A DNA stretch of 52,020 bases, taken from contig JAURFT010000006.1 of the NCBI GenBank assembly GCA_030834185.1, positions 1-52,020 on the forward strand. Reading direction: 5' to 3'. This stretch comes from Candidatus Nanopelagicales bacterium. Its GTDB lineage: Bacteria; Actinomycetota; Actinomycetes; S36-B12; UBA5976. The notes below the pieces were generated by a model that made no database searches, was not told the origin of the DNA, and was given only the letters and a program-made list of their open reading frames with translations. The translations under genes and the position numbers were made by a program. Of this stretch, positions 37,653-51,915 are shown piece by piece. How positions within the stretch are numbered: position 1 is the stretch's first letter; every line of letters starts with the position of its first letter.

Positions 37653-38895
37653 ATGACTGAGCCAACAAATCCCCCAATAAATGAACCAGACATCAGAGCC
37701 TTTGAGGCAATTGACACCATTGAGGAAGAGCGCTGGTTAACTCGAGCGCTTAAAGATGAAACCTTTGGCGGTTCATTATTGCTAGCAGCAGGTGTGCTGG
37801 CATTAATAGTTGCCAACTCACCAGCAGGCGATTGGTATGCAGAGCTGCTGCAAACCAAGCTGGGCTTTGAGCTGGTTGGCTTAAAACTCACAGTTGCGCA
37901 TTGGGCAGCTGATGGTTTGCTTGCTATTTTCTTTTTAGTTGCAGGGTTAGAGTTAAAACACGAGTTAGTTCATGGTTCATTATCAAAACCAAGACAAGCA
38001 ATGGTGCCACTTGTTGCAGCAATTGCAGGCATGACCTTTCCCCGCTTTAATTTATGTAATGATGTTGCGTGGCAACGCAGAAGCTATTGGTGGCTGGGCA
38101 ATACCTGTTGCAACTGATATCGCATTTGCGCTAGCAGTGCTTGCAGTAGCTGGGCGAGGATTGCCGGTTGAACTAAGAGCATTTTTATTAACACTAGCTG
38201 TTGTTGATGATTTAGGTGCAATCACAATTATTGCAGTTTTTTATTCTGATGATATTGATAAAAACATGTTATTTTTATTAGTAATTCTATTAGTTATATA
38301 TGGCTTGCTACAAAAATTTAATTTCACTCGTTGGTTTTACTTAGTGCCACTTGGTTTATTAATCTGGTGGGCAACATATCAATCGGGTATTCATGCGACA
38401 GTTGCGGGAATTGCAATTGCGCTACTAACTCGCATTCAACACCGAGATGAAGAAACAAGCTCACCTGCAGAAATTGCGGAGCTTCGGGCCAGGCCAATTA
38501 GCGTTGCGATTGCAATTCCAATTTTTGCTTTTACAGCAGCAGGTGTTGATCTAAGGGATCTTGGCTTTATGGATACGGTAAGCAGTGATATTTCAATTGC
38601 AATTATTTTGGGATTAGTTATTGGTAAACCGCTAGGTGTAATTGGATCTACTTATTTACTAACTAAATTTACTAGCGCCAGATTAAATGAAAATCTAAAT
38701 TGGTCTGATGTGCTTGCAGTTGGGCTGTTGGCTGGCATTGGCTTTACAGTGTCTTTGTTAATTGCTGAACTCTCATTTGCCACAGACATTGCAAATCTAT
38801 CTGCTGCGAAAGTGGGTGTTTTAGCAGGTAGCGTTCTTTCGGCAGTTGCTGCAATTGTGGTTATGCAGTTGCGAGCTCGAAAGGCTAGGGTTTAA
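37653..38895 (+). pseudogene. nhaA: Na+/H+ antiporter NhaA split by a +1 frameshift at CCCC (38040-38043)
   Basis: ORFs 37653-38117 and 38059-38895 are the N- and C-terminal parts of NhaA; removing one C restores ...[35 protein letters not shown]... (~413 aa). Confidence 0.9.
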
Positions 38896-40019: not shown

Positions 40020-40032
40020 CATATTAAACAAG

Positions 40033-40105
40033 TGCGCCTGGAGGGACTCGAACCCCCAACCGCCTGATCCGAAGTCAGGTGCTCTATCCGTTGAGCTACA
40101 GACGC
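40033..40105 (-). tRNA. tRNA-Arg(TCG)
   Basis: Cloverleaf GCGTCTG...CAGGCGC; anticodon stem-loop CCTGA-CTTCGGA-TCAGG. Confidence 0.93.
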
Positions 40106-40629: not shown

Positions 40630-41982
40630 ATGTCAATATTTCGTCGACGTGCAATAGGGCTAGGTGTAATTGTCACCGCGTCTTTATTGGTACTCGCTGG
40701 GTGTTCATCTGAATCAGATTCAGCAGGAGGCGGAACTGAAAATTGCGAGGCATATGCTGAATATGCTGGCAACGAAGGAACCACAGTAGAAATTTACACA
40801 ACCATTATTTCTCCTGAAGCAGACCTATTTGTTCAATCATTCCAGGAGTTTCAAGATTGCACAGGGATAACTATCAATTGGAATGGCTCACAGGAATTTG
40901 AAGCTCAAATTTCAGTGCGAGTTGAAGGTGGCACTGCACCAGATCTAGCAATTTTCCCACAGCCAGGCCTGCTAGCTAAGTTCGCTGGTAATGGATTGGT
41001 ACCTGCTCCTGCAAAGGTTGCAGACTCAGTGGATGCAAATTACACAGCTGACTGGAAAAATTATGGCACTGGCCCAGATGGTGTCTTTTATGCAGCACCA
41101 CTTGGTGCAAACGTAAAGTCATTCGTTTGGTATTCACCTAAGACGTTTGCAGATAATGGTTGGTCAATTCCAACAACTTGGGCTGAACTACTTGCACTAT
41201 CCGATGAAGTTGCAGCAGGCGGAGACATACAGCCTTGGTGTGCTGGATTTGGATCAGGCGATGCAACCGGTTGGGTTGGAACAGACTGGATGGAAGACCT
41301 AATGCTGCGATTCAGTGATGCTGCAACTTATGATGCATGGGTAAGCCATGACATTGCATTCAACGATCCAAAAGTACAAACAGTGATCGATGAAGCTGCA
41401 AAGATCCTAAAGAATCCAGATTATGTTGGTGACGTAGCTTCAATCGCTACCACTACATTCCAAGAAGGTGGCGCTGGCATTGTTGATGGAACTTGTGCAA
41501 TGCATCGTCAAGCATCATTTATTGGTGGAATTTTGGCCGCTGACTATGGAGCAACAATTGTTAATCCAGAAGATACCGATGTAGAGGGTGGAATTACAAC
41601 TTTCTACTTCCCAGGTGTATCTGCTGATCAAACTCCAGCTCTTGGCGGCGGCGAATTCGTTGGTGCATTCAGCGATCGTCCAGAAGTACAGGCTGTTCAG
41701 CATTATCTAACAACACCTGATTGGAACAACAAAAAAGCTGCACTTGGTGGCTGGTTCTCAGCCAACCTTGGATTGGATACTGCAAACGTGGCAGATCCAG
41801 TTAATAAGGTTGCTGTTGAAATCTTGCAGAATGCAACCACATTCCGCTTTGATGCATCAGATTTGATGCCAGCAGCAGTAGGCGCTGGATCTTTCTGGAA
41901 GGAAATGACTGCTTGGGTAGCGGAGAACAAGTCGAGCAAGGCTGTTCTAGATGCTATTGAAGCTTCATGGCCGGCGAACTAG
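40630..41982 (+). CDS. Sugar ABC transporter substrate-binding lipoprotein (alpha-glucoside type)
   Basis: Lipobox LLVLAGCSS; extracellular solute-binding family 1 features; followed by two permeases. Confidence 0.92.
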   Translation: MSIFRRRAIGLGVIVTASLLVLAGCSSESDSAGGGTENCEAYAEYAGNEGTTVEIYTTIISPEADLFVQSFQEFQDCTGITINWNGSQEFEAQISVRVEGGTAPDLAIFPQPGLLAKFAGNGLVPAPAKVADSVDANYTADWKNYGTGPDGVFYAAPLGANVKSFVWYSPKTFADNGWSIPTTWAELLALSDEVAAGGDIQPWCAGFGSGDATGWVGTDWMEDLMLRFSDAATYDAWVSHDIAFNDPKVQTVIDEAAKILKNPDYVGDVASIATTTFQEGGAGIVDGTCAMHRQASFIGGILAADYGATIVNPEDTDVEGGITTFYFPGVSADQTPALGGGEFVGAFSDRPEVQAVQHYLTTPDWNNKKAALGGWFSANLGLDTANVADPVNKVAVEILQNATTFRFDASDLMPAAVGAGSFWKEMTAWVAENKSSKAVLDAIEASWPAN

Positions 41983-42003
41983 TAATAGTTCTTTAAGAGT
42001 AAT

Positions 42004-42042
42004 AACACTTCAGGGGCTTGCGCTGCAAGCCCCTGAAGTGTT
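42004..42042 (+). promoter_or_regulatory. Perfect 18-bp stem-loop between binding-protein and permease genes
   Basis: AACACTTCAGGGGCTTGC-GCT-GCAAGCCCCTGAAGTGTT. Confidence 0.8.
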
Positions 42043-42056
42043 TACTGGGAAGTGAG

Positions 42057-43064
42057 ATGAAATTGACAGCACTAGTTCCTCAGCGATCGCTCTGGGACAC
42101 CGTGTTGCCAAATTTAGTGATGCTAGGTAGTGCCATCGCAGCTTTCCTTGGCATTATTTTTCTTTTATTTGTTTTAGCAGAGCGATCACCAAACAAAATC
42201 CAAAATATATTGAAATATGTAGTTTTTCTAGCACCTGCTGCAGTGCTGCTGCTTATTGGATTGATTTATCCTGCAATTCGCACACTGATCTACTCTTTCA
42301 TGAATGACGACAGTTCAAAATTTATTGGATTTGAAAATTACGTTTGGGCTTTTACGATTCCTGAGATTCGGATCGTTTTGCGCAATACACTAATTTGGAC
42401 AATTTTGGTTCCAGTTTTGGCAACTGGAACTGGTTTGGCCATCGCTTATATGACGGATCGAATGAAGCGCGCGGCTGTGATTAAGTCATTAATTTTTATG
42501 CCAATGGCTATCTCGTTTGTAGGGGCGGGAATTATCTGGCGATTTGTTTATACCTATGAAGCAAATCTAAAACGACCTGAGATTGGTTTGTTGAGTTCGA
42601 TCTGGCGAGCAATGGAGTGGGAACCTCGCAATTGGCTTCTTGAAGCACCGTTGAATACCTTGCTCTTGATCGTGGTTATGGTTTGGATTCAAACAGGCTT
42701 TGCCATGGTTGTGCTATCTGCTGCCATGAAAAACATCCCAGATGAAATTATTGAGGCATCTTTACTTGATGGCACTTCAAATTGGCGAAGATTTACAAAA
42801 ATCACAATTCCAATGATTAGGGCTACCATCGTGGTGGTATTAACAACAATTACAATTGGAACTCTAAAAGTATTTGACATTGTAAGAACTATGACTGGTG
42901 GCAATTTCAAAACTAATGTTATTGCAAATGAAATGTATTCACAGTCATTTAGGCAGATGAACTATGGCACTGGAAGTGCTTTGGCTATCATTTTATTTAT
43001 TGCCATTATTCCAATAATTATCTACAACGTTCGACAATTAAGACTTGAACGGACGGAAAGATAA
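42057..43064 (+). CDS. Sugar ABC transporter permease (MalF/AglF-like)
   Basis: EAA loop EIIEASLLDGTSNWRRFTKITIPMIRA; start moved to MKLTALVPQ because the upstream start lies inside the stem-loop. Confidence 0.92.
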   Translation: MKLTALVPQRSLWDTVLPNLVMLGSAIAAFLGIIFLLFVLAERSPNKIQNILKYVVFLAPAAVLLLIGLIYPAIRTLIYSFMNDDSSKFIGFENYVWAFTIPEIRIVLRNTLIWTILVPVLATGTGLAIAYMTDRMKRAAVIKSLIFMPMAISFVGAGIIWRFVYTYEANLKRPEIGLLSSIWRAMEWEPRNWLLEAPLNTLLLIVVMVWIQTGFAMVVLSAAMKNIPDEIIEASLLDGTSNWRRFTKITIPMIRATIVVVLTTITIGTLKVFDIVRTMTGGNFKTNVIANEMYSQSFRQMNYGTGSALAIILFIAIIPIIIYNVRQLRLERTER

Positions 43065-43975
43065 TGACCATAATTAATAGTAAACGTGCAAAAAATGCAT
43101 TTAGTTCTCCAATAGCCTCGGCTGCAGCTGTCGTAATTGCGATCCTATGGACCATACCTACGTTTGGACTTTTAGTTAGCTCGATTCGACCTGAAAAGTC
43201 AATAAATACATCTGGCTGGTGGACCTTTTTCACAAACCCAGAAGTATCACTAGAGAATTATGAAAAGGTTTTGTTTCAAGGCACTTTGATTCAACCACCA
43301 ATGGTGCAATATTTTTTCAACAGCTTGGCAATTACTTTGCCAGCAGTAGTTTTTCCAATAACTTTGGCAGTATTTGCAGCTTACGCCTTGGCTTGGTTTG
43401 ATTTTAAAGGTCGAGACTTTATATTTTTTACTATTTTCGCGCTTCAAGTAGTGCCTTTGCAGTTAACGCTAATTCCACTTCTTCAACTTTTTGCTAAAGG
43501 CTTATCAATAAATGGCATCACGATTATTCCTGATTTAGGAATCACTGGCACGTATATACCCATCTGGATTGCGCATACAATCTTTGGACTACCGTTGGCA
43601 ATATTTTTACTACATAACTTCTTACGACAGATTCCTCGTGAACTAATTGAGGCTGCTAAAGTTGATGGAGCTGGATGGTTCATAATGTTTCGTGCGCTGA
43701 TATTGCCGTTAAGCATTCCTGCAATTGCGTCATTTGCTATTTTCCAATTTCTTTGGGTTTGGAATGACTTATTAGTTGGTTTAACTTTTGGTGCTGGCTC
43801 TAAAGAAGTAGCTCCTATGACTGTTCGATTGGCGGAGATGGTTGGTACTCGTGGTGGTGGCTGGGAAGTGCTAACCGCGGGTGCATTTGTTTCGACAGTA
43901 GTACCACTGATTGTCTTTTTTGCCTTGCAGCGTTATTTCGTACGAGGATTATTAGCAGGCTCAGTTAAGGGTTAG
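43064..43975 (+). CDS. Sugar ABC transporter permease (MalG/AglG-like)
   Basis: EAA loop RELIEAAKVDGAGWFIMFRALILPLSIPAIASFAIFQFLWVWNDLL. Confidence 0.94.
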   Translation: MTIINSKRAKNAFSSPIASAAAVVIAILWTIPTFGLLVSSIRPEKSINTSGWWTFFTNPEVSLENYEKVLFQGTLIQPPMVQYFFNSLAITLPAVVFPITLAVFAAYALAWFDFKGRDFIFFTIFALQVVPLQLTLIPLLQLFAKGLSINGITIIPDLGITGTYIPIWIAHTIFGLPLAIFLLHNFLRQIPRELIEAAKVDGAGWFIMFRALILPLSIPAIASFAIFQFLWVWNDLLVGLTFGAGSKEVAPMTVRLAEMVGTRGGGWEVLTAGAFVSTVVPLIVFFALQRYFVRGLLAGSVKG

Positions 43976-45351
43976 CGTTTCCTACCAAGATTTAGCTCCC
44001 TTAGAAACTCCGCACTTAGTTTGGGTGTGCGCTTTTGATTGCTAAAGTCGTTATGAATAATTCCAAATTTTTTAGATATTCCTTCAGCCCACTCAATGTT
44101 ATCTAACAGCGACCAAGCAAAGTACCCCTTTAGATCTATGCCTTGAGCTACAGCTTCTAGTGCTGTTTTGATATGGGTGTAAAAATAATCAACTCGATCA
44201 AAATCTAAAACTTTGCCATCAATAATGTGATCAGGAAATGCTCCACCATTTTCAGTTATATATAGCGGAGTATTTGGTAGCCGAGCTGAAGTTTGCTGCA
44301 ACGTAGTTAATAGTGAACTGGCATCTATTTCCCAACCCATTTCGGTGGTTGGTGGTAGCGGATTAAAGCTTATTGGTTGTGGAGTTCCTGGATATAAGGC
44401 GAGATCTTGTCCTACAGCAGCGCTAGCTGGCGCTGCCATACCCAGCCTTGTTGGCGTGTAGTAATTAATTCCTAGCCAATCAATAGGTTTACTGATGCAA
44501 TCTAGCTCAGCTTGATCAACAAAGTCCCAATCCAAAATGTGTTTAGTGTTTTCAATCAAAACAGACGATACCCCTCGACCAGCTAATAGATCTAGCCAGA
44601 ATCGATTTTGTAAAATATCAATATGCTCTTGAGCAGCTGCTAACTCACTAGTTGCAATTATTGAAGTTAAATTCAAAACAGTGCCAGCATTTTTTACGCT
44701 GTGCTCTCGCAGTACCTGTAGAGATTTTCCGTGAGCCAACATTAAGTTATATGCAGCCCTAAACCCACTTGCCGCATCATTTCGACCTGGAGCATGAATT
44801 GCGGTTGCATAACCTAGGAATGCACTAACCCATGGCTCATTTAAAGTTGACCAAAAATCGATTCGGTCACTAAATTTTTCAGCTAAAATATTTGTGTATT
44901 CAGCAAAACTTTCTGAAATACCATCCCAAGTCCAACCACCCATGGCTTCTAGTTCAACTGGAAGATCCCAGTGATAAATTGTGAGTGATGGTTTTATGTT
45001 TCTAGCTAATAGGCCGTCTATTAACTTGTCATAGAAGTCAAGACCTACAGCTGAAGCTTTGCCACTTCCAGTTGGAATAACTCTGGGCCAAGAAACTGAG
45101 AAGCGGTAGGCGTCTACATTTAACCAGCTAAGTAGATCAAGATCTGTTTGATACAGTGAAACATGATCACAAGCTGGATCTGCTAGCGCTCCATCTTTGA
45201 TTCGGCCGGCATTAGCAAAATCATCCCAAATCGAAGCTCCTCGTGTGCTGCTATTACCTTCAATTTGCCAAGATGAAGTTGCCGCTCCAAAGATAAAATC
45301 AGTTGGTGTCATGGCAGCTAGTTCAAGGGCTTTTGCAGTTAACTCACTCAT
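43972..45351 (-). CDS. Glycoside hydrolase family 1 beta-glucosidase
   Basis: FIFGAATSSWQIEG, WSTLNEPWV (acid/base Glu), LYITENGGAF (nucleophile Glu), GYFAWSLLDNIEWAEG. Confidence 0.96.
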   Translation of the reverse strand: MSELTAKALELAAMTPTDFIFGAATSSWQIEGNSSTRGASIWDDFANAGRIKDGALADPACDHVSLYQTDLDLLSWLNVDAYRFSVSWPRVIPTGSGKASAVGLDFYDKLIDGLLARNIKPSLTIYHWDLPVELEAMGGWTWDGISESFAEYTNILAEKFSDRIDFWSTLNEPWVSAFLGYATAIHAPGRNDAASGFRAAYNLMLAHGKSLQVLREHSVKNAGTVLNLTSIIATSELAAAQEHIDILQNRFWLDLLAGRGVSSVLIENTKHILDWDFVDQAELDCISKPIDWLGINYYTPTRLGMAAPASAAVGQDLALYPGTPQPISFNPLPPTTEMGWEIDASSLLTTLQQTSARLPNTPLYITENGGAFPDHIIDGKVLDFDRVDYFYTHIKTALEAVAQGIDLKGYFAWSLLDNIEWAEGISKKFGIIHNDFSNQKRTPKLSAEFLRELNLGRKR

Positions 45352-45541: not shown

Positions 45542-46102
45542 TTATTTTGATGGCAGTTCAGTAAATCGTACTTTGACAAGAACTAAAAGTAATTGTTTAT
45601 CTATCTGCCAATCAAAAGGAACTCGAATGGTGTGTTTATTAATTTTGTAATCTTTTAATTTCGGCAGTGTCTTTTTGATTGCATCTGCACTGAATGGATT
45701 AAGTAAAATATGATTTTTTTGAACACCTAACCCAAAGACATATCCATTAGCTGCCTTGAGCATTGGCTGATTCCAAGCAATCACTAATTCAAGCTCTGGA
45801 TATTTGGTTTGAATGGCTTTAAATATTTCTGTTACTGTTTTTGCACATTGCTTATCAAGCTTCTTCAAGTAGTCAGCTGGATCTTTATGTCTTTTGGAAG
45901 ATACAGATCCTTTTGCAAACATAACAACAGCGTTTGCATGAGTTTGGCTAAATCCATGATTCTCTCTCAAAAAAGAAATTTGAGCTGGGTATTTCTGGTC
46001 ATCAAGATTAGCTAATTCAGAAAGCCAGTACTTTATTGGCTGGCCATACTTTTTTTCAATGGCAGGAAAGTGTTTAGCACGATCTCCAGAATCAGCTGCC
46101 AT
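45542..46102 (-). CDS. DUF4287 plus DUF1801/DUF5655-like protein
   Basis: YPAQISFLRENHGFSQTHANAVVMFAKGS (DUF4287-like) and YPELELVIAWNQPMLKAANGYVFGLGVQKNHILLNPFS (DUF1801/DUF5655-like). Confidence 0.75.
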   Translation of the reverse strand: MAADSGDRAKHFPAIEKKYGQPIKYWLSELANLDDQKYPAQISFLRENHGFSQTHANAVVMFAKGSVSSKRHKDPADYLKKLDKQCAKTVTEIFKAIQTKYPELELVIAWNQPMLKAANGYVFGLGVQKNHILLNPFSADAIKKTLPKLKDYKINKHTIRVPFDWQIDKQLLLVLVKVRFTELPSK

Positions 46103-46141: not shown

Positions 46142-46927
46142 CTAGAGCGAACTTGTTGCCAATACACCTGCAAATATCTGCCAGGCTAAGGCTGACTTTG
46201 CTACAAATGAAAGTGTGATGTAAAGCCGTTCACCAACAAGATAGTCTTTAAATTTCCCGATTTGTTTATATTGCAACCACTGCACAATTGCAAAAGAATT
46301 GAACAGCACAAATAATGAAATAACGACACCATAAACAAAGCCTGGTGGCTGGTTAGTGCTACCTGGTGAGAACAACAGCCAGAACATGGCGATCCATGGC
46401 ACTATGCCAGCAATGCAGCCAAACCAAAATGGTAGTAAGCCGCCAGAGCCAGGCTCTTCATATTTTTCTTGCAACCAACCAAATAAAATCATTGTGACAT
46501 TGACACCAGCAATTGCAATTAGCGCGATGATGTCCCAAACCGCATTAATTAATGCGATAAGTATGATCATTATGGTTGAAGAGATGGAGTATTCAATCCA
46601 GCGTGCAATGTTGCGCTTATTAGCTAAATCAGTGGCATAGTTCTTAAAACCAGGTCCAACAATCCAAAAATGTGCAAGCGCGCTCAACAATGAGAATACT
46701 GCTACACCAGCTGCGATTGGAAAATTAAACAAATTTATGCTCTCAAAGGTTGCACCAGGTATTGGCGCATCTTGCAGATAATTCACAGATACCGGCAGCG
46801 CAAAGCTGTTAGAAAGCGCGATTATTGCAATTGCTTGGGCAAAGTGAAATATGCCCGCAATTAGGTTGTAGCGACGAAGGCCAGCTAGACGCTCGGCTGG
46901 AATTGCTAATAATTCAGAAGATGCCAT
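46142..46927 (-). CDS. Heliorhodopsin
   Basis: 261 aa, 7 TM; heliorhodopsin signatures ARWIEYSISSTIM (counterion Glu112) and ERLYITLSFVAKSALAWQIFAG (retinal Lys244); His28 and His86 at expected TM positions. Confidence 0.92.
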   Translation of the reverse strand: MASSELLAIPAERLAGLRRYNLIAGIFHFAQAIAIIALSNSFALPVSVNYLQDAPIPGATFESINLFNFPIAAGVAVFSLLSALAHFWIVGPGFKNYATDLANKRNIARWIEYSISSTIMIILIALINAVWDIIALIAIAGVNVTMILFGWLQEKYEEPGSGGLLPFWFGCIAGIVPWIAMFWLLFSPGSTNQPPGFVYGVVISLFVLFNSFAIVQWLQYKQIGKFKDYLVGERLYITLSFVAKSALAWQIFAGVLATSSL

Positions 46928-46934
46928 AAGGGTG

Positions 46935-46940
46935 AGCCTA
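46935..46940 (-). promoter_or_regulatory. Candidate -10 element TAGGCT of a leaderless heliorhodopsin promoter
   Basis: TAGGCT ends 7 nt before the heliorhodopsin ATG; no SD visible. Confidence 0.45.
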
Positions 46941-47018
46941 GCAATACGTAGCTCAACTTTGCAGGTATTTAGCCATTTATAAGGGCTTAAAAGTCTGTGA
47001 ACGAATTTGGGCTGAACC

Positions 47019-47028
47019 CGCTTAAGCG
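47019..47028. promoter_or_regulatory. Perfect palindrome CGCTTAAGCG in the divergent heliorhodopsin-sbtA intergenic region
   Basis: Read directly; adjacent to the candidate sbtA -35. Confidence 0.4.
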
Positions 47029-47053
47029 ATTGGGCTACTGATTGGTTCTCAGT

Positions 47054-47059
47054 TAGTAT
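47054..47059 (+). promoter_or_regulatory. Candidate -10 element TAGTAT of a leaderless sbtA promoter
   Basis: TAGTAT ends 7 nt before the sbtA ATG; no SD visible. Confidence 0.45.
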
Positions 47060-47066
47060 TTCGTCG

Positions 47067-48029
47067 ATGAATTCGTCACTGGATATCGCCCTGTCAAATC
47101 TGACGTCAGTATCGGTATTGATATTTCTATTTGGTTTGCTTGCTGGCGCTATTAAAAGTGATGTGAAGATTCCTGAACCTATTTATCAATTCATTGCGAT
47201 ATATCTACTTTTTGGCATTGGCCTTAAAGGTGGAGTATCACTGCGTGAGAGTGAAATTAGTGAAGCGGTAGTTCCCATTTTGGCAACATTAGTGCTGGGT
47301 ATCACAATTCCATTTTTAGCATATCTAACTTTGGGCAAAGCAACTAAAATTTCTTCAATTGATCGTGGCTCACTTGCTGCACATTATGGTTCAACATCAC
47401 TAGTTACATTTACTGCAGTACTAGTTTATTTAGATAGCAACAAAATTAGCTATGAAGGATTTGCCACAACCTTACTTACGGTTATGGAAGTGCCAGGAAT
47501 TGTAGTTGGTATATTTTTAGCTAAACGGCACTTAACACCAAAAGTGGATTGGTCAGAATCACTAAAAGAAATATTTTTAGGCAAAACATTAATGTTATTA
47601 GTTGGTGGTTTATTTATTGGCTATGTAGCTGGTGGAGAGGGATATGTTCGGGTTGAGCCATTCTTTGTGAACTTGTTGCCAGGTGTGCTTGCGCTTTTCT
47701 TGCTGCACCTAGGTTACTTAGCAGGCGAGCGGTGGAAATCAATTCTTGAAGTAGGTAAAGGTCTAATTGCTTTTGGTATTTTCTTCCCAATTGCAATGGG
47801 CTCGCTGGGTACTTTCGTTGGAACCTTAATTGGACTCTCTGTTGGTGGCGCTGTAATTTTAGGAATCTTGTCTGCTAGCGCATCTTACATAGCAGCACCT
47901 GCTGCAGTCCGTGTTGCACTCCCAGATGCAAATATATCAATAGCAGTTACAACAAGTTTGGTAATTACATTTCCCGTTAACCTACTGCTTAGCATTCCGT
48001 TATTAACACTGCTTGCACAAAATCTTTAA
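47067..48029 (+). CDS. sbtA: Sodium-dependent bicarbonate transport family permease (SbtA-like)
   Basis: 10-TM pattern; IYLLFGIGLKGGVSLRES, AAHYGSTSLVTFTAVLVYL, LLHLGYLAGERW, ASASYIAAPAAVRVALPDANISIAVTTSLVITFPVNLL motifs. Confidence 0.9.
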   Translation: MNSSLDIALSNLTSVSVLIFLFGLLAGAIKSDVKIPEPIYQFIAIYLLFGIGLKGGVSLRESEISEAVVPILATLVLGITIPFLAYLTLGKATKISSIDRGSLAAHYGSTSLVTFTAVLVYLDSNKISYEGFATTLLTVMEVPGIVVGIFLAKRHLTPKVDWSESLKEIFLGKTLMLLVGGLFIGYVAGGEGYVRVEPFFVNLLPGVLALFLLHLGYLAGERWKSILEVGKGLIAFGIFFPIAMGSLGTFVGTLIGLSVGGAVILGILSASASYIAAPAAVRVALPDANISIAVTTSLVITFPVNLLLSIPLLTLLAQNL

Positions 48030-48142: not shown

Positions 48143-48144
48143 AG

Positions 48145-48217
48145 CGCGCCCGAAGAGATTCGAACTCCTAACCTTCTGATCCGTAGTCAGATGCTCTATC
48201 CGTTGAGCTACGGGCGC
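48145..48217 (-). tRNA. tRNA-Arg(ACG)
   Basis: GCGCCCG...CGGGCGC acceptor; anticodon stem-loop TCTGA-CTACGGA-TCAGA. Confidence 0.94.
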
Positions 48218-48601: not shown

Positions 48602-49444
48602 TTAGGAAAGTATGTCTTTTCGATCAAACTTCAAAAAGGCCAATGTGATTAAGGTTGCGAACAATATTGCTGCGCTAGCAAAACCTTTTGCCATCCCATC
48701 CCAAACTATTTCTGGGCTTAAGACATCAGTCCAAGCTTGACTGTAATGGCCAGGCAACCAATTTCGCAAGTCACCTAGTGCTGAAATCGCATCTAAAATT
48801 GCAAACACAATTACCAGCAGCACTGCAGTTCCAACTGCACCAAGTGGCACATCAGTTCGAACGCTCATATAAAACGCAAGTCCGGAAACAAACAATAAAG
48901 TTATATAAACATACCCACCAATTATTGCCAACCTAAGAATTTGCTCAGCACCAGAAAAATTACCACCCAGCGGACTTATTAATGGTTCACTGCCAAATGC
49001 GAGTAATCCAATTAAATAAGAAACCAAAATTAAAATCATAATTGCCATTAAATTAAGCGTCATAGCAACAGCAAGTTTGATTCTAAGCAATCTGCGCCTT
49101 GGCACTGGAGCTGCTAATAAATAACGCAAACTTGACCAAGATGCTTCACTGGCAACAGTATCTCCTGCAAACAACGCAAATACAGTTGTTAATAAAAATC
49201 CAGTAGCAAAGAAAATCATAACAACTGTAAAGTTGCTAGCACCATTAGTTGCTAAACCTATTAAATCTAAATCGCCACCACCAAAATCACTTGAATCATC
49301 ATCACCTGATCCAAACTTAACAGCAGCTACCACAATTAGTGGTAGTAAAACCATCAGGCCAAATGCAACTAAAGTTCGTCGGCGTCTGAGCTGTCGGATG
49401 AACTCAACTTTGAAAGGTAAGGTTTTTCTAACTATGTAAGTCAT
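48602..49444 (-). CDS. ABC-2 type transporter permease
   Basis: Six TM pattern, FALFAGDTVASEASWSSLRYLLAAPVPRRRLLRIKL; overlaps the upstream ATPase gene by 4 nt. Confidence 0.9.
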   Translation of the reverse strand: MTYIVRKTLPFKVEFIRQLRRRRTLVAFGLMVLLPLIVVAAVKFGSGDDDSSDFGGGDLDLIGLATNGASNFTVVMIFFATGFLLTTVFALFAGDTVASEASWSSLRYLLAAPVPRRRLLRIKLAVAMTLNLMAIMILILVSYLIGLLAFGSEPLISPLGGNFSGAEQILRLAIIGGYVYITLLFVSGLAFYMSVRTDVPLGAVGTAVLLVIVFAILDAISALGDLRNWLPGHYSQAWTDVLSPEIVWDGMAKGFASAAILFATLITLAFLKFDRKDILS

Positions 49445-51915
49445 GACGTTTTTCCGATCGTTAAGTCATCGCCAACCACATCAAGGAAGAAATCCTCTAG
49501 TCGCATGTTGCTGTGGCTGGCCAGCAATTCGCTAACTTCACCAGCAGTAATTAATTGACCTCGATGCATCACCACCACATAAGAGCAGGTTTGTTCTACC
49601 TCACTTAATAAGTGAGAAGAAACAATTACTGTTTTGCCTTGAGCAACATAGTCATGCAGCACATCTCGCATAGCTTTAATCTGAGGGGGATCAAGTCCAT
49701 TAGTTGGCTCATCCAAAATCAAGAGATCTGGCATTCCGAGCATGGCTTGCGCAATGCCAAGCCGTTGTCGCATTCCTTGGCTGTAGGTGCGAACTTTTCG
49801 GTCTACTGCAGTACCTAGATCTGCAATTTTTAATACCTGTTCAAAATGCGGTTCAGAATTTCTGCCAGTTGCTCGCCAATACAACGCCAAATTTTCGCGT
49901 CCAGTTAGATGAGGTAAAAAGCCTGCACCTTCAACCAAAGATCCAATTCGAGATAGCACCGCAGCACCAGGAGTTACTCGCTCTCCAAACACAAACACCG
50001 AACCTGCAGTGGGCTGAATTAATCCCATCACCATTCGCATGGTGGTGGTTTTGCCAGCACCATTTGGACCTAGCAACCCAACTACTTTCCCTTGCGGAAT
50101 TTCATAGCTAATGTCGTTAACAGCTTTTGGACCATTTTTAAATTGCTTAACTAAGTTCTCAATTACAACTGGAGTTTCAGAAATTTCAGCACGAGTATCT
50201 GCTTTACGATGACGTGGTCGCAAGATAATTAAGACCAAACCAAGCAGCACAATTACACCAATAGTTAGCAGCACAAAAACCCAACCTGATTGTGTGGTTG
50301 TAGTAGGTGTTAGTGCTGTAGTTGAGATCGCAATTGTTGGGCTAGCTAACTCAATTAAATAATTTGCTGGCGTGGTAGGTAACCGATAAGCCAGATCAGT
50401 TGTGCTAATTACTACCTGCAAAATATCGCCGACCTTGGTAGCCACTGCAATTGCTGGCAGCTGAACTAGCACGGTTGTAGGTTCAGTTGAGATTAGTGGA
50501 ATTCGAATTGGGGCCACTAAACCACTTGGCAACGAGGATACTGCGTTAGCTCCCACAATTCGCAAACTTGCAAATAGCACTACATCTTGCTGCGGTGAAC
50601 TGCTAGAAACTTTAAGCTCAAGCTGCGAGCTACCAACAATTTTTAAAGTTTTAGTTAAGGGTGCAGTTTGAAAAATTGCGTTCTGGGCTGGGATCTGCTG
50701 CGTTAATAAACTACCAATGCTGCCAATTCCTGGGAAAGTTGAAATCGCAGCTGGAACTCCACCTGCTGGTGCCAGCACGCTTTGGGCTGGTCCGGCAATT
50801 GATAATTGTTCGGTTAAGTTTGCGATACCAGGATAGTTTTTACTTGATTCAATTCCAGTTGATTCATTAGCTTGATTTGCGCTAATTATGTTTGCTGGCA
50901 CAAAAGTAACTTCAAAATCAGAATTAATGCTGCCAGTGTCGCGAAGATATTTATCAAACCAACGCTGGGTCAATTCATCTAGCCTGGTGGTTTCGGATCT
51001 ACCACCATCATGCCCGCCGCTGTGCCAGACAAATTTAATTGGCAAAGCTGGATTGGCAGCTTTAAGCTGCTGATAATTAGCATCAGCTTCAGATAGCGGA
51101 AATAGTGAATCAGCTTGACCTGCTAATAAAAGTGTTGGCGCCGTAACGTTGGCATTAGTGCTTACCGGTGATGAGCTACGCATTAATTGCGCTTCTGAAT
51201 TGGTATAAGAACCTCGCTGCGCAACGCTTTCATATAACTGACACCAAGTGGGATCAAATCTGCCGCAACGAGGATTTGTTGGGTTTGGAATTACTAAACC
51301 ACGACTAAAGAAATAACCAGTCCATAATTGTTTAAATACACCTGCTGAATTTAAATTAACTACGCTTTGTGGAAATAGCGCAGTAGTTAGGTTATGCCAA
51401 GTGATATCTGATACCACAGCATCAACTCGAGGGTCAGTTCCTGCGATCATCAAACTTAACGCGCCACCGTATGAACCACCAGCAAAACCAACCCGAGGAT
51501 CGTTTGCATCGTCTTTAATTACCTCTGGTCGATTTGCCAGATAGTCAATTACTTTTGCCGCATCGGCAATTTCAAATTGCGGTGAGTTCATTGAGATTAA
51601 GCCAGTGCTTTTACCAAAGCCGCGTGCTGTGTATGCAACTACTACGTAACCTGCTGCACGCAAATTTTCAGCCTGTTTAGCAACTGCTGTTTTACTGCTA
51701 CCAAAACCATGGGCTAGTACAATTGCTGGCGCTGGAAGTGTGGTTGGCAGATACAAATCGCTATCTAACTGCACTGCAGTGGCATCAGAGCTGCTACTTG
51801 CAGCACCTGCAATAACTATTGCCAACGGATTAGTTTGGGCAGCTGCAGTGCTTGGTAGAAAACCAAAAATAAACAGCGCGGCCAAGCCATAGCTAAGCCA
51901 GTTACGAAACAACAT
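49441..51915 (-). CDS. Fusion: exported alpha/beta-hydrolase (X-Pro dipeptidyl-peptidase S15/CocE-like, with PepX-C-like domain) + TM helix + cytosolic ABC transporter ATPase
   Basis: Signal peptide; GGSYGG nucleophile (Ser148), Asp269, His302; TM GWVFVLLTIGVIVLLGLVLIILRPR; Walker A GPNGAGKTTT, signature YSQGMRQR, Walker B LLILDEPTNGLDP. Confidence 0.92.
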   Translation of the reverse strand: MLFRNWLSYGLAALFIFGFLPSTAAAQTNPLAIVIAGAASSSSDATAVQLDSDLYLPTTLPAPAIVLAHGFGSSKTAVAKQAENLRAAGYVVVAYTARGFGKSTGLISMNSPQFEIADAAKVIDYLANRPEVIKDDANDPRVGFAGGSYGGALSLMIAGTDPRVDAVVSDITWHNLTTALFPQSVVNLNSAGVFKQLWTGYFFSRGLVIPNPTNPRCGRFDPTWCQLYESVAQRGSYTNSEAQLMRSSSPVSTNANVTAPTLLLAGQADSLFPLSEADANYQQLKAANPALPIKFVWHSGGHDGGRSETTRLDELTQRWFDKYLRDTGSINSDFEVTFVPANIISANQANESTGIESSKNYPGIANLTEQLSIAGPAQSVLAPAGGVPAAISTFPGIGSIGSLLTQQIPAQNAIFQTAPLTKTLKIVGSSQLELKVSSSSPQQDVVLFASLRIVGANAVSSLPSGLVAPIRIPLISTEPTTVLVQLPAIAVATKVGDILQVVISTTDLAYRLPTTPANYLIELASPTIAISTTALTPTTTTQSGWVFVLLTIGVIVLLGLVLIILRPRHRKADTRAEISETPVVIENLVKQFKNGPKAVNDISYEIPQGKVVGLLGPNGAGKTTTMRMVMGLIQPTAGSVFVFGERVTPGAAVLSRIGSLVEGAGFLPHLTGRENLALYWRATGRNSEPHFEQVLKIADLGTAVDRKVRTYSQGMRQRLGIAQAMLGMPDLLILDEPTNGLDPPQIKAMRDVLHDYVAQGKTVIVSSHLLSEVEQTCSYVVVMHRGQLITAGEVSELLASHSNMRLEDFFLDVVGDDLTIGKTS

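Follow-up and report, generated by a model that had tools for sequence, protein, structure and literature searches.

The window, i.e., the whole 52,020-nucleotide stretch of DNA analyzed here, comes from a freshwater-type actinobacterium and harbors a gene for a heliorhodopsin (HeR) and a gene for a transporter of the Sbt_1 family (also named SbtA-type), which are located back to back on opposite strands (Table 1). The initial annotation had named these two proteins and had described them as divergent across 139 bp, where the identities are borne out by matches to family models (PF18761, NF038020 and PF05982) and the arrangement by the coordinates of the open reading frames. The HeR gene and the DUF4287/DUF1801 gene behind it probably form one operon. 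Between the latter gene and tRNA-Arg(TCG) the window also carries a block composed of a sugar ABC transporter and a GH1 glucosidase (40630-45351), which is missing in the sister species (G002).

Table 1. Genes and landmarks around the HeR and sbtA genes, given as positions in the window
Feature	Position	Strand	Basis or remark
Heliorhodopsin (HeR) gene, 261 aa	46142..46927	-	Pfam PF18761, 4.1e-92; NCBIfam equivalog NF038020, 1.5e-91; ATG at 46927
Sbt_1 / SbtA-type Na+-dependent transporter gene (sbtA), 320 aa	47067..48029	+	PF05982, 1.6e-100; ATG at 47067
Divergent intergenic region HeR / sbtA, 139 bp	46928..47066		ORF coordinates
DUF4287/DUF1801 gene	45542..46102	-	39 bp behind HeR; order kept in the sister species
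tRNA-Arg(ACG)	48144..48217	-	Landmark past sbtA; in genus g2 close to HeR with no sbtA there
tRNA-Arg(TCG)	40032..40105	-	Landmark on the other side; just past DUF4287 in the sister species
TAGGCT, -10-like box	46940-46935	-	Exactly 7 nt before the HeR ATG
TAGTAT, -10-like box	47054-47059	+	Exactly 7 nt before the sbtA ATG
CGCTTAAGCG palindrome	47019-47028	.	Word search of the window; probably chance

The heliorhodopsin and the transporter

The HeR protein scores far above the cut-offs of the curated family models (308 bits against 26.7 for PF18761 and 306 bits against 100 for NF038020) and matches structurally solved 48C12-type heliorhodopsins at ~6e-84. In the alignment with 48C12, K244 and E112 take the positions of the retinal Lys and the Glu counterion, both of which are kept; the protein is presumably a light sensor that acts on partner proteins. 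In the HeR tree it falls into a fully supported clade made up of genera g1, g2, g5 and g8, distinct from the HeR of another member of the same genus (G001). The genome bin from which the window is derived (G000) contains two further, very divergent HeR genes (locus L118, contig C81, 5026-5784, and locus L119, contig C123), which are either paralogues or contamination.

The transporter is matched by the Sbt_1 model (PF05982) at 337 bits, where the cut-off is 27, and by the Synechocystis SbtA (7cye) at 2.8e-32. Cyanobacterial SbtA has four residues that contact bicarbonate, Ser114, Tyr140, Ser324 and Ser327, all of which are needed for full transport (PMC8352866). Two of these four are kept in the window's protein (Ser114 as S111 and Ser324 as S273) and the region of the inverted-repeat fold also aligns; in contrast, Tyr140 and Ser327 are replaced by L137 and A276, respectively, and both the Leu and the Ala are invariant in all nine of the actinobacterial proteins aligned. 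Because of these invariant replacements, bicarbonate is uncertain as the substrate, plausible but unproven. The protein presumably couples the uptake of Na+ to that of bicarbonate or a related small anion. It further differs from the cyanobacterial SbtA-SbtB system in that no SbtB was recognized beside the window's sbtA, that the linker between the two halves of Synechocystis SbtA is missing and that the host is not a cyanobacterium.

Promoter boxes and the intergenic palindrome

As the initial annotation had noted, a -10-like hexamer of the form TANNNT is found at the same distance from both start codons, and neither is preceded by a run resembling a Shine-Dalgarno sequence. This arrangement supports the earlier proposal that both genes are likely to have leaderless starts, and at the sequence level it shows no difference from the leaderless actinobacterial promoters, which combine TANNNT 6-7 nt before the ATG with the lack of a Shine-Dalgarno sequence and are frequent across the window. 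A sigma-70 promoter scan of the intergenic stretch found no -35/-10 pair inside it. In the window, the box is found 6-7 nt upstream of 11 of 46 genes (1.1 expected, P 2e-8), and the GH1 gene (43972-45351) carries a TAGGCT box identical to that of HeR. The same spacing is seen at 22 of 72 sbtA genes (3.7 expected) and 16 of 61 HeR genes (2.6 expected) in related loci, where the boxed genes are mostly not neighbors of each other. In the sister species the sbtA box is kept as TAGAAT at 7 nt, no TANNNT box is kept at this spacing before HeR in the intergenic region, and the HeR gene of the linked locus in G006 has a strong Shine-Dalgarno sequence in place of a box. The matched boxes are ordinary leaderless promoters of this genome, and since they are common both in the window and at unlinked sbtA and HeR loci, they are uninformative on co-regulation; the matched promoters were rejected as a sign of it because around one in four genes of the window carries the same box.

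The palindrome is present at the position given by the initial annotation, but is not conserved. The word CGCTTAAGCG is found once in the window, where 0.06 occurrences of this exact word are expected, while perfect 10-bp palindromes of any sequence number 68, i.e., 0.17 per region as long as the intergenic one, which makes the one found there unremarkable. It is absent from the 114-bp intergenic region of the sister species, which aligns poorly with the window's 139 bp, and from the other linked loci; among all fetched loci it is seen only at the window's own (L001) and on one contig of G012 (L111/L210), far from sbtA. The palindrome is thus probably due to chance and was rejected as an operator, being absent from the sister species and of a common kind. 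A 9-bp block, TCAACTTTG, is common to the intergenic regions of the window and the sister species.

Distribution and history of the gene pair

For the order Nanopelagicales, the distribution of the pair was surveyed across 167 genomes, where proximity is defined as a distance of up to ~2.5 kb, centre to centre. HeR is found in 126 and Sbt_1 in 54 of these genomes, and the two genes lie close to each other in only six of the 167, which belong to three genera, as well as in one genome of another actinobacterial class. Conservation of the adjacency across the order was therefore rejected. In the window's own genus, the pair is divergent in both G000 and the sister species (L104), where the downstream DUF4287 gene is kept as well. 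In genus g5 one genome (G006) has the genes divergent at ~1 kb with a gene for a SOUL heme-binding protein between them, and in genus g13 three genomes (G039, G140 and G138) have them in convergent orientation. The sbtA gene beside HeR is only a fragment in G138 (L108, contig C50, 3117-4549) and is whole in its relatives G039 and G140. In G006 (L105, contig C31, 8477-11909), HeR is followed by DUF2256 and photolyase-related (DPRP) genes, a combination that none of the other HeR loci fetched from the clade shows.

Genomes that harbor both genes mostly have them apart, including the same-genus members G012, G141 and G143. In the class outside the order, four of the 46 genomes with HeR have a clear Sbt_1, all unlinked, and in the rest of the phylum, where the survey covered 80 genomes with HeR and left out 14 further ones, eight have a clear Sbt_1, of which one is linked (G527). 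In this genome, from another class of the phylum (L141, contig C73, 4964-8140), the genes for SbtA, a CNNM/CorC protein and HeR are found in a row on one strand in an operon-like arrangement. In a search of 80 named SbtA loci together with as much as 10 kb of flanking sequence, the g13 pair alone had HeR within 2.5 kb, and two Aquiluna loci had it 6-9 kb away. The DUF4287 gene was rejected as an obligate partner; it is present in at least 131 of the 167 genomes and is mostly unlinked among the matches listed.

A chance model in which each genus is represented by one genome and genes are placed at random predicts 0.05 linked genera in the order and 0.03 outside, about 0.08 in all. Leaving out the window's genus and g5, two independent linked cases are seen where ~0.07 are expected (P~0.002, a rough value because the numbers and sizes of the genera were compiled manually from tables). 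NhaA, taken as a control family, was never seen within 2.5 kb of HeR in genomes of the order, as compared by eye, and DUF4287 gave one case near HeR outside the window's genus (G024) among the matches listed. HeR is also more common where Sbt_1 is found, both by genome (51 of 54 Sbt_1-bearing genomes vs 75 of 113 others, Fisher p 4e-5) and by genus (20 of 21 vs 9 of 19, p 0.001), a co-occurrence that is confounded by common descent and habitat. The recurrence of the HeR-SbtA proximity exceeds the chance estimate, as a weak statistical association. The adjacency to which the initial annotation had drawn attention is thus kept in the sister species and recurs in a few other actinobacteria beyond this estimate, but is rare across the order.

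The surroundings of the pair may point to how it was formed. In two g2 genomes, the only two from this genus compared, HeR and tRNA-Arg(ACG) share a strand and are 0.5-1.9 kb apart; an SRPBCC gene lies between them, but sbtA does not. In the window, sbtA fills the space held in g2 by other genes. Because HeR is found near the same tRNA-Arg without sbtA in these relatives, we infer that sbtA probably entered a variable site next to HeR that is flanked by tRNA-Arg genes. In the sister species no tRNA-Arg(ACG) was found in the 6.4 kb fetched beyond sbtA, and no tRNA gene was found in the stretches fetched around the linked loci of g5, g13 and G527. The SbtA tree accommodates either one or two origins of the linkages in g1 and g5. 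A genome from another family of the same class (G421) has an SbtA that is 61% identical to the window's, a likeness that suggests transfer. There (L150, contig C1, 6636-8228), the sbtA start codon is located almost directly behind tRNA-Arg(TCG), and DUF4287 follows right after sbtA; in G018, DUF4287 precedes sbtA.

Interpretations of the pairing

We favor, with somewhat better than even confidence, a reading in which the two divergent genes form a lineage-specific pair, each transcribed independently from an ordinary leaderless promoter and with no shared operator. Transcription of HeR, together with the DUF4287 gene behind it, and of the Sbt_1 gene would each start from a TANNNT promoter of its own. 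HeR would have been near tRNA-Arg(ACG) already in an ancestor within the family, and sbtA, elsewhere found beside DUF4287 or a tRNA-Arg gene, would have settled between the two. Because PEP carboxylase, which uses bicarbonate as a substrate, is present in the genome, the transporter could feed anaplerosis in this organism. Given the recurrent proximity and the higher frequency of HeR in Sbt_1-bearing genomes, the pairing may be functional instead of a neutral arrangement, and judged from the genes a link between light and transport is possible. The interpretation offered in the initial annotation is thus partly supported, but its regulatory argument fails.

That the two genes met by coincidence is quite possible, if not our first choice. 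Sites flanked by tRNA-Arg genes would gather accessory genes, and HeR and sbtA would simply be common accessory genes of actinobacteria in sunlit waters, which is consistent with the tRNA-Arg genes on both flanks, with the sugar-transport/GH1 block found in the window and not in the sister species and with the other genes next to HeR in g2. However, the lack of tRNA genes in the stretches fetched around the other linked loci (g5, g13 and G527), as well as the rough probability obtained for the independent cases, argue against it.

In a reading that we consider unlikely, the HeR protein itself would act on the SbtA-type transporter as a photosensory modulator, and the genes would for this reason be repeatedly drawn together in any orientation. 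Anion uptake would then be increased or decreased by light, and HeR would occupy the position of the cyanobacterial PII-like SbtB. The proximity in four genera and three orientations, where ~0.08 genera are expected, the co-occurrence of the two families by genome and genus, and the NhaA control all fit such a role. There is also precedent for a protein-level partnership between HeR and a transporter, since reports describe HeR as a binding partner and regulator of glutamine synthetase (PMC9529153) and as a modulator of the ABC transporter OmrDE (PMC11109279). These points are weakened by the separation of the genes in most genomes that have both (e.g., G012, G141 and G143), by the sbtA fragment in G138 and the intervening genes in G006 and G527, and by the small counts, the assumption of random positions and the confounded co-occurrence. 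Still less probable, in our view, is the general proposal that HeR would be a light-dependent regulator of an SbtA-type anion symporter in actinobacteria and would take over the part of SbtB, through which non-photosynthetic planktonic actinobacteria would tune the uptake of inorganic carbon or anions to light.

Transcriptional co-regulation by way of the palindrome in the intergenic region that the genes share, proposed in the initial annotation to serve light-linked bicarbonate uptake, is very unlikely, because, although the divergent arrangement is kept in the sister species and the 9-bp block is found in both intergenic regions, the palindrome is missing in the sister species, the boxes are generic, the sister species does not retain the box before HeR, which in G006 gives way to a Shine-Dalgarno sequence, and the occurrence of divergent, convergent and codirectional pairs argues against a shared promoter.

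The function of heliorhodopsins in most lineages has so far been approached best through their gene neighbors. As in the known pairs with glutamine synthetase and OmrDE, in the window a HeR gene is found beside a metabolic or transport gene in an actinobacterium, which suggests a partner; in contrast to those same-strand operons, the window's pair is divergent, probably has separate promoters and is a putative partnership. In surveys of HeR neighbors, same-strand genes were counted as possible operons (PMC8612252, PMC11109279), and the main texts of PMC8612252, PMC11109279 and PMC9529153 do not list Sbt_1 with the chief partner groups. A literature search found no paper naming heliorhodopsin together with sbtA, and the matches for heliorhodopsin and bicarbonate concern other topics. 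The Sbt_1 transporter is a candidate partner that surveys limited to same-strand operons would miss, and the weak but repeated proximity leaves room for a functional link, which, if true, would tie light sensing to the uptake of inorganic carbon or anions in abundant freshwater heterotrophs.

Two further features of the window concern genes outside the pair. In the window, the NhaA antiporter gene (37653-38895) is broken into two overlapping reading frames, whereas the sister species has it whole; the split is either a frameshift or an assembly error. Beyond the pair (49441-51915), a single 824-aa open reading frame combines an X-Pro-dipeptidyl-peptidase-like hydrolase with an ABC transporter ATPase domain, which is an unusual fusion.
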